Part shown: one piece after another, positions 2 through 1,408 of the stretch | How positions within the stretch are numbered: the stretch's first letter is position 1 | Layout of the letters: each line of letters begins with the position of its first letter | Source of the DNA: an uncultured Pelagibacteraceae bacterium | Lineage (GTDB): Bacteria; Pseudomonadota; Alphaproteobacteria; Pelagibacterales; Pelagibacteraceae | DNA: 62,227 nucleotides | Direction of reading: 5' to 3' | NCBI GenBank assembly: GCA_902559605.1 | Contig: CACEIC010000001.1 | Coordinates: forward strand, 105,056-167,282 | Position numbers and translations under genes: made by a program | Notes under the pieces: model-generated | What the model was told of the DNA's origin: nothing | Seen by the model: only the letters and a program-made list of their open reading frames with translations | The model's database searches: none

Positions 2-253
2 AAAAATTATGTAATTAAAACTATTGTAAAAGGTGATGAAAAAATTCCTGAAATTTCAGCCGCATCGATTATTGCTAAAGTTGAAAGAGATAAGCTAATG
101 AAAAAGATGTCTTTTTCTTTTAAAAAATACGGCTGGGATAATAATGCAGGTTATGGAACCAAGGATCATATTAAAGCTATTAAAAAATTTGGAGTGACTA
201 GATTTCATAGAAAAACCTTTCAACCAATACACAAGATATTGAGTCTTAAATAA
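2..253 (+). CDS. rnhB: Ribonuclease HII, C-terminal part (5' truncated by window edge)
   Basis: Frame 2 reads ...IPEISAASIIAKVERDKLM...YGWDNNAGYGTKDHIKAIKKFGVTRFHRKTFQPI.. stop at 251-253; the ASIIAKVxRD and GYGTxxH motifs are typical of RNase HII. Confidence 0.9.
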   Translation, partial: KNYVIKTIVKGDEKIPEISAASIIAKVERDKLMKKMSFSFKKYGWDNNAGYGTKDHIKAIKKFGVTRFHRKTFQPIHKILSLK

Positions 254-292
254 TAATCATAACAATTATCAATCAATAAATTCAATCACAGG

Positions 293-321
293 TTGACGTA
301 GACTCCTGACTGGAGTCTAAT
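293..321 (+). promoter_or_regulatory. Predicted ccrM promoter: TTGACG (293-298), 17-bp spacer, TCTAAT (316-321); spacer contains inverted repeat TAGACTCC-TGACT-GGAGTCTA (299-319) with two GANTC sites
   Basis: Direct sequence reading; near-consensus -35/-10 with 17-bp spacing just upstream of the ccrM ATG at 335. Confidence 0.65.
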
Positions 322-334
322 TCAAAAATATAAA

Positions 335-1408
335 ATGATCATTTCAGACATAAAAAATAAAATTATTAATGGAGATAGTATTAAGGAATTAAAAAAAATT
401 CCGGCTGAAAGTTTTGATCTGATATTTGCAGATCCACCTTACAACCTTCAACTGAAAAAAGAATTAAGTCGACCTGATAGATCTAAAGTCGATGCTGTAG
501 ACGATGCATGGGATAAATTTGATAGTTTTAAAAGTTATGATGAGTTTTCAGTTCAATGGCTTAAAGAATGTAAAAGAATTTTAAAAAAAAATGGATCTTT
601 ATGGGTCATAGGAAGTTATCATAATATTTTTAGAGTTGGTTCAAAAATGCAAGATTTAGGTTTTTGGATACTAAATGATGTGATTTGGAACAAAAAAAAC
701 CCTATGCCAAATTTTAGAGGAACACGTTTTACGAATGCGCACGAAACACTTATATGGGCATCAAAATGTGAAGGCTCAAAATATACTTTTAATTATCAAT
801 CACTTAAATGTTTAAACGATGATCTACAGATGAGATCTACATGGAATTTACCTATATGTAATGGAAAAGAAAGACTTAAAAATAATGGTAACAAAGTTCA
901 CTCAACACAAAAGCCAGAGTCTTTATTGCACAGAATTATATTAGCATCGTCTAATAAAGGCGATTTGGTATTGGACCCGTTTCTCGGTACGGGAACAACT
1001 GCTGTAGTTTCAAAAAAGTTAGGTAGAAATTATTTTGGTATAGAAAAAGAAAAAAACTATTTTGAAGCTGCAAGTAAAAGAATTAAAAATACAAAAATTA
1101 TAGAAGATGAATATTTAGATACTATAAAAAATAATAGATCCAAACCAAGAGTGCCATTTGGATCTTTGGTTGAATTAGGAATTATTAAACCTGGTACTGA
1201 AATTTTTGATCAAAAAAAACAAATCAATGCGAAAATTATGATTGACGGTAGTATAAAATATCGGAAATCAGAAGGATCAATTCATAAAGTTGCTGCACAA
1301 ATATTAGGTGCTGAGAGCTGTAACGGTTGGACTTTTTGGTATTATAAATCAGGTAATTCACTCAAACCAATTGATGATTTGAGGCAAAGACTAAGGCCAA
1401 CTACTTAA
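335..1408 (+). CDS. ccrM: Adenine-specific DNA methyltransferase, CcrM family (GANTC)
   Basis: DPPYNLQL catalytic motif, LDPFLGTGTTAV SAM motif, C-terminal CcrM-type domain (RPRVPFGSLVE-like, SIHKVAAQILGAESCNGWTFWY). Confidence 0.92.
   Translation: MIISDIKNKIINGDSIKELKKIPAESFDLIFADPPYNLQLKKELSRPDRSKVDAVDDAWDKFDSFKSYDEFSVQWLKECKRILKKNGSLWVIGSYHNIFRVGSKMQDLGFWILNDVIWNKKNPMPNFRGTRFTNAHETLIWASKCEGSKYTFNYQSLKCLNDDLQMRSTWNLPICNGKERLKNNGNKVHSTQKPESLLHRIILASSNKGDLVLDPFLGTGTTAVVSKKLGRNYFGIEKEKNYFEAASKRIKNTKIIEDEYLDTIKNNRSKPRVPFGSLVELGIIKPGTEIFDQKKQINAKIMIDGSIKYRKSEGSIHKVAAQILGAESCNGWTFWYYKSGNSLKPIDDLRQRLRPTT

Follow-up and report, generated by a model that had tools for sequence, protein, structure and literature searches.

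The closest described systems are the sigma-70 promoters of Caulobacter that are controlled by GcrA and CcrM, such as ctrA P1 and mipZ (PMC4287350, PMC3667746). Those Caulobacter promoters that have a GANTC site between the -35 and the -10 fall into one temporal class (PMC4287350). GcrA favours GANTC in its methylated form and brings in RNA polymerase (RNAP) (PMC3667746); furthermore, it contacts domain 2 of sigma and stimulates open complexes (PMC7403470). The ccrM promoter of Caulobacter crescentus carries two GANTC sites, that is, sites of the methylase at its own promoter, and hemimethylation has been linked to expression (reviewed in PMC10073500); the gene uses CtrA (PMC4287350). Methylase genes under the control of methylation at their own promoter are also known from CfrBI, LlaDII and AhdI, and the CfrBI site lies within inverted repeats (PMC12707154). 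According to the accessible part of Adhikari et al. 2021 (PMC7987155), ccrM is a predicted core target of GcrA, based on an extended GANTC that is conserved upstream of the gene and lost in Caulobacterales, and there is little GcrA regulation in Pelagibacter. We were not able to find any literature specific to the autoregulation of ccrM.

The locus described here comes from a SAR11 bacterium (Pelagibacter, genus g1) and lies at the beginning of a window of 62,227 nucleotides, by which we mean the whole stretch of DNA that was analysed. Its features are the following:

2..253, + strand: 3' part of rnhB (ribonuclease HII), the upstream gene; open reading frame, Pfam RNase_HII (1.8e-16)
241..245, + strand: GANTC within the rnhB coding sequence, in the codons for ...ILSLK*; kept in 50/50 close relatives, but constrained by coding
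281..297, + strand: TTCAA-N7-TTGAC box that extends into the -35 (TTCAATCACAGGTTGAC); within Pelagibacter it is conserved (TTCAATC at 88-97% per column, 94 unique sequences)
293..298, + strand: -35 element TTGACG, from reading the sequence; invariant among close relatives
299..319, + strand: inverted repeat TAGACTCC (299-306)-TGACT-GGAGTCTA (312-319) with perfect 8-bp arms; in 36/50 near-clade members only
301..305, + strand: GANTC site 1 (GACTC), in the spacer, offset +8 from TTGAC; recurs class-wide at +7 to +11, missing in 8/50 close relatives
313..317, + strand: GANTC site 2 (GAGTC), offset +20 from TTGAC, overlapping the -10; in 50/50 close relatives
316..321, + strand: probable -10 element TCTAAT with a C at -11, assigned from the class-wide alignment
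335..1408, + strand: ccrM, cell-cycle-type GANTC adenine methyltransferase, ATG at 335; PDB 6pbd, NF050803, Pfam

A first-pass annotation had described a promoter consisting of TTGACG (293-298), a 17-bp spacer (299-315) and TCTAAT (316-321), with an inverted repeat of 8-bp arms at 299-319 that takes in two GANTC sites, 301-305 and 313-317. Re-reading the sequence, we find all of these elements where it had placed them. The third GANTC that it listed at 241-245 does exist, but it lies inside the rnhB reading frame (2-253) rather than between the genes, and it is probably not part of the promoter. Across the window as a whole GANTC is depleted to about half of the expected number (84 seen vs 176 expected).

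TCTAAT is the likely -10, since T321 matches the -7 T that is conserved at 96% class-wide (see below). The GANTC site of Pelagibacter has moved by 1 bp relative to the class (+20 in the window vs +19 in most other Alphaproteobacteria), which places a C at -11, and for this reason the exact -10 is uncertain. The same C explains why a sigma-70 scan of the window does not list the promoter at 293-321. Transcription is predicted to start at about position 328, which would give a leader of about 7 nt that is devoid of a Shine-Dalgarno sequence.

The gene downstream of the promoter is indeed ccrM, as had been claimed. Its product matches the structure of Caulobacter CcrM (PDB 6pbd, E 1.2e-137) and contains the Pfam domains N6_N4_Mtase and RAMA; the best match is NF050803, the NCBIfam model of Caulobacter CcrM (4.9e-174), with a score of 578 bits that is below the curated cut-off of 830 bits. 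Within the family, 134 of 147 genomes have ccrM, among them every one of the 53 that are of high quality. In the window it sits between rnhB and an ORF resembling FAD oxidoreductases, with a MutY-like ORF also in the neighbourhood (the latter two identified by sequence reading only), and no restriction endonuclease partner is seen among these neighbours as read. The distance between ccrM and the parS-like site is about 208-228 kb in seven complete Pelagibacter genomes, which is about one third of a replichore if parS marks the origin. Apart from this main parS some 220 kb away, parS-like motifs occur at or just 5' of the ccrM promoter in several SAR11 lineages, namely GTTTCACGTAGAAAC (loci L020, L021, L034 and L193), CACGTGAAACAC (L141-L152) and motifs like TTCACGTGAAA (L129, L132 and L143). 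In one complete genome of genus g14 (G060:C1:621783-622831), the ccrM frame appears to be broken near its 3' end, with a second match that has internal stops.

The alignment of the ccrM upstream gap across genomes supports the first-pass annotation in one respect and not in others. Among 50 close relatives, site 2 is intact in every one, site 1 in 42 and the whole inverted repeat in 36. Of 94 distinct Pelagibacter-type promoters in an alignment, 74 have site 1 at +8 or +9 from TTGAC and 37 have a third GANTC at about -24. Site 2 lies at +20 in 93, a count that is favoured by the alignment anchor. Because of this bias, a table anchored on TTGAC alone is the fairer evidence; there, at least one GANTC is found at +7 to +25 in 78 of 90 Pelagibacteraceae loci and in 12 of 13 genera. 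The arrangement differs between genera. For example, g1, g8, g13 and g15 have GANTC at +8/+9 and +20, g5 and g10 at +20 and +42, and g7 has mostly a single GANTC at +10. Genus g6 carries another inverted repeat, GATTCAA-N7-TTGAATC, with GANTC at +9 and +25, of which the +9 site alone remains a GANTC in g12 and in most g4 loci. In g11 and in 4 of 6 g14 loci a core like AGTCTA or AGTTTA is retained without GANTC.

Two further observations concern the sequence around these sites. GATTCAA-N7-TTGAATC is found directly 5' of the ccrM start codon in L128, L139, L140 and further g4 and g6 loci. The TTCAA-N7-TTGA(A/C) box recurs at the ccrM promoters of Pelagibacteraceae (upstream regions of L119-L178) at varying positions: over the -35 in g1 and g8, inside the spacer in g4, g6 and g12, and 3' of the -10 in g5 and g10.

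The class-wide set consisted of 54 ccrM loci, that is, 49 further alphaproteobacterial genomes (one per family) and 5 loci of the SAR11 sister family f2. Outside these elements, the upstream regions have diverged too far for an alignment. GANTC is nevertheless located exactly +19 from the start of TTGAC in 25 of the 54 loci and at +20 in 2, two coincidences within coding sequence (L222 and L255) being left out of this count of 27; in shuffled sequences, the +19 pattern is expected in 0.015 sequences. Plotted as a histogram, the GANTC offsets show one sharp peak, at 19, and they cluster at 7-10, and 21 of the 27 element-bearing loci carry a second GANTC at +7 to +11. Aligned on TTGAC, the -10 reads CAnnnT, where the C is the final base of GANTC and the A and the T are conserved at 93% and 96%. 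The recurrence of GANTC at fixed positions in ccrM core promoters, far beyond SAR11, is the part of the cross-genome comparison that speaks for the original proposal. The architecture had also been called unusually compact; it turns out to be the common layout of alphaproteobacterial ccrM promoters. Such a near-identical layout at ccrM in about half of the sampled families suggests a link between the output of the enzyme and the mark that it sets itself.

A leaderless or near-leaderless mRNA is predicted from the place of the start codon, since 19 of 28 loci have an in-frame one 5-9 nt past the -7 T. In L195-L199, L202, L205, L211, L228, L233 and L238, about 7 nt separate the predicted -10 from the ccrM start codon; translation of ccrM may thus do without a leader in much of the class.

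Of 18 genomes scanned with the pattern TTGAC-N14-GANTCA-NNN-T, 16 yield the ccrM promoter; there are 6 other matches, compared with 8 for the reversed control. The Pelagibacter version, TTGAC-N14..16-GANTCTANT, finds ccrM about once per genome and essentially nothing else; the one recurring extra match, which we checked in G083, is antisense within rpoC. We therefore regard the composite as close to a signature of ccrM, and reject the notion that it is a general promoter type of SAR11.

As for the proteins that might read the mark, GcrA is encoded in the genome of the window, G000 (PF07750, 6e-34), with an ORF in L208; 21 genomes were searched along with it, of which 18 have GcrA. The locus thus has GANTC in the core promoter, both CcrM and GcrA encoded, and a conserved position (strongly for site 2, weakly for site 1), as in a sigma-70 promoter controlled by GcrA and CcrM. 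Class-wide, the element is not confined to genomes with a detected GcrA: in 8 of the 27 element-bearing genomes, two of them 100% complete, no GcrA above the family cut-off was found. Either GcrA is dispensable, or it has diverged beyond recognition in these genomes. These genomes are G014, G193, G208, G223, G234, G240, G248 and G249. The presence of GcrA does not predict the element, as there is no association between the two (GcrA in 19/27 genomes with the element vs 24/27 without it).

We were not able to find a CtrA ortholog in 13 genomes, where the best matches to an approximate CtrA query sequence were full-length OmpR-family proteins with about 26-35% identity. G000 is 62% complete, but complete relatives give the same result, which is consistent with Brilli et al. 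2010 (PMC2877005). Reading positions 240-334, we see no CtrA box of the form TTAA-N7-TTAA. With neither ortholog nor box found, we reject control of ccrM by CtrA in the window. The CtrA box and the GANTC element were compared as alternatives in too few cases.

What could the sites do? The first-pass annotation had proposed autoregulation of ccrM by methylation state. A GANTC at a fixed position, conserved far beyond SAR11, fits a control linked to methylation; the autoregulation itself and its direction are inferred. The reading that we favour, and hold to be rather probable, is that the ccrM core promoter is of the sigma-70 type with CcrM sites fixed in it, one overlapping the -10 at its upstream side and, in most cases, another in the spacer, and that their methylation is read by GcrA, possibly by RNAP itself, so that ccrM is tied to replication and to its own product. 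The passage of the replication fork through ccrM would leave the GANTC sites of the promoter hemimethylated. GcrA, a protein that binds both methylated GANTC and domain 2 of sigma, would stimulate the formation of open complexes at the weak -10 and lead to a burst of ccrM, and newly made CcrM would then restore full methylation and damp the promoter. The promoter would in this way sense when its own locus is replicated and how much of its product is present, and in SAR11, where no CtrA ortholog was found, such a loop would replace the control of ccrM by CtrA. Methylation-dependent binding and activation by GcrA are predicted for this promoter, and the sign of the feedback is put forward by analogy. 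The annotation had also considered hemi- or unmethylated DNA at 301-317. In a culture of Pelagibacter NP1, 99.86% of GANTC is fully methylated, with a gradient linked to replication (PMC9516812). Since methylation is so complete in this related strain, a stable hemi- or unmethylated state is unlikely, and the brief hemimethylated state after the fork would be the natural signal.

GcrA may not be needed. Methylation of the -10-proximal GANTC, or CcrM bound to it, could weaken the binding of RNAP or the opening of the promoter directly, as in the promoters of some restriction-modification methylases. We consider such GcrA-independent autorepression possible, if on the unlikely side. The site is located at about -16 to -12, the methylase genes of CfrBI, LlaDII and AhdI are regulated by promoter methylation (PMC12707154), and CcrM distorts the DNA at its site (PMC10073500). 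Furthermore, GcrA is undetected in 8 of 27 element-bearing genomes, which leaves room for a direct reading of the mark by RNAP. On the other hand, most genomes do have GcrA, the reader of exactly this mark, and no biochemical data on the effects of m6A at these positions of the -10 edge were found in the literature. A more far-reaching version, which we regard as rather unlikely, would have the Alphaproteobacteria share a methylation-sensing -10 locked in its geometry at ccrM (TTGAC-N14-GANTC-A-NNN-T, often leaderless) and read directly by RNAP, with ccrM as a self-limiting replication sensor that predates GcrA and CtrA and is able to work without them.

It is also conceivable, but improbable, that this is an ordinary constitutive sigma-70 promoter in which the methylation of GANTC makes no difference and conservation goes back to promoter strength alone. 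The -35 and the -10 are the most conserved parts, the -10 core is kept without GANTC in g11 and most of g14, and site 1 is often missing among close relatives, all of which speaks for this reading. However, the GA at +19/+20, upstream of the -10, does not belong to a standard -10, and yet GANTC recurs, with its N free, across regions that cannot be aligned, in genomes in which GANTC is generally under-represented (PMC3973325, with which the count in the window agrees). Very improbable indeed is a role of the inverted repeat independent of methylation, be it as the operator of a dedicated dimeric repressor or as an RNA hairpin, even though its arms are perfect in the window and a separate box, TTCAA-N7-TTGA(A/C), is conserved in the family and shifts relative to the promoter. 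It is the GANTC units that are conserved and not the repeat, which is gone in 14 of 50 close relatives and has no consistent symmetry class-wide; of 22 pairs of GANTC, 7 have complementary N bases, 5 have identical ones and 10 have neither. There is no T run downstream of the repeat, and on this ground we reject a terminator or an RNA hairpin. We have therefore rejected the inverted repeat as a functional unit, against the emphasis that it had first been given, and it would arise incidentally from a pair of GANTC sites that are each close to palindromic.

Compared with the Caulobacter promoters of the ctrA P1 and mipZ type, the likeness lies in the GANTC in or beside the -35 and -10 and in the presence of both CcrM and GcrA. 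The differences are that here the regulated gene is ccrM itself, that site 2 holds a constant position bordering the -10, that the composite is nearly specific to ccrM, and that the role of GcrA is predicted, with some element-bearing genomes showing no detectable GcrA. The ccrM gene of C. crescentus shares the two GANTC sites but uses CtrA, whereas in SAR11 no CtrA ortholog was found and GANTC lies inside the core promoter. With the methylases of the CfrBI and LlaDII type, ccrM shares a recognition site of its own enzyme within its core promoter. Unlike the methylases of CfrBI, LlaDII and AhdI, CcrM is an orphan with no restriction partner, and the inverted repeat at its promoter is not conserved. 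Adhikari et al. 2021 scored sites anywhere from -200 to +100, whereas we describe fixed positions; in the accessible part of that paper (PMC7987155) we saw neither TTGAC-N14-GANTC-A with its fixed spacing nor the arrangement of two sites nor the near-leaderless start described. While related ideas have already been published, the fixed positions, the specificity for the gene and the near-leaderless start are apparently new, as we found no description of them in the accessible literature.

The timing of CcrM is unsettled in bacteria without CtrA, for example in SAR11, whose cells are some of the most numerous in the ocean. The composite described here offers a signature by which ccrM promoters can be recognised. 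With its own mark fixed beside the -10, at one gene and in many families, ccrM is a concrete and simple test case for autoregulation by methylation, and the layout suggests a common ancestral control of ccrM beneath the lineage-specific wiring of CtrA.
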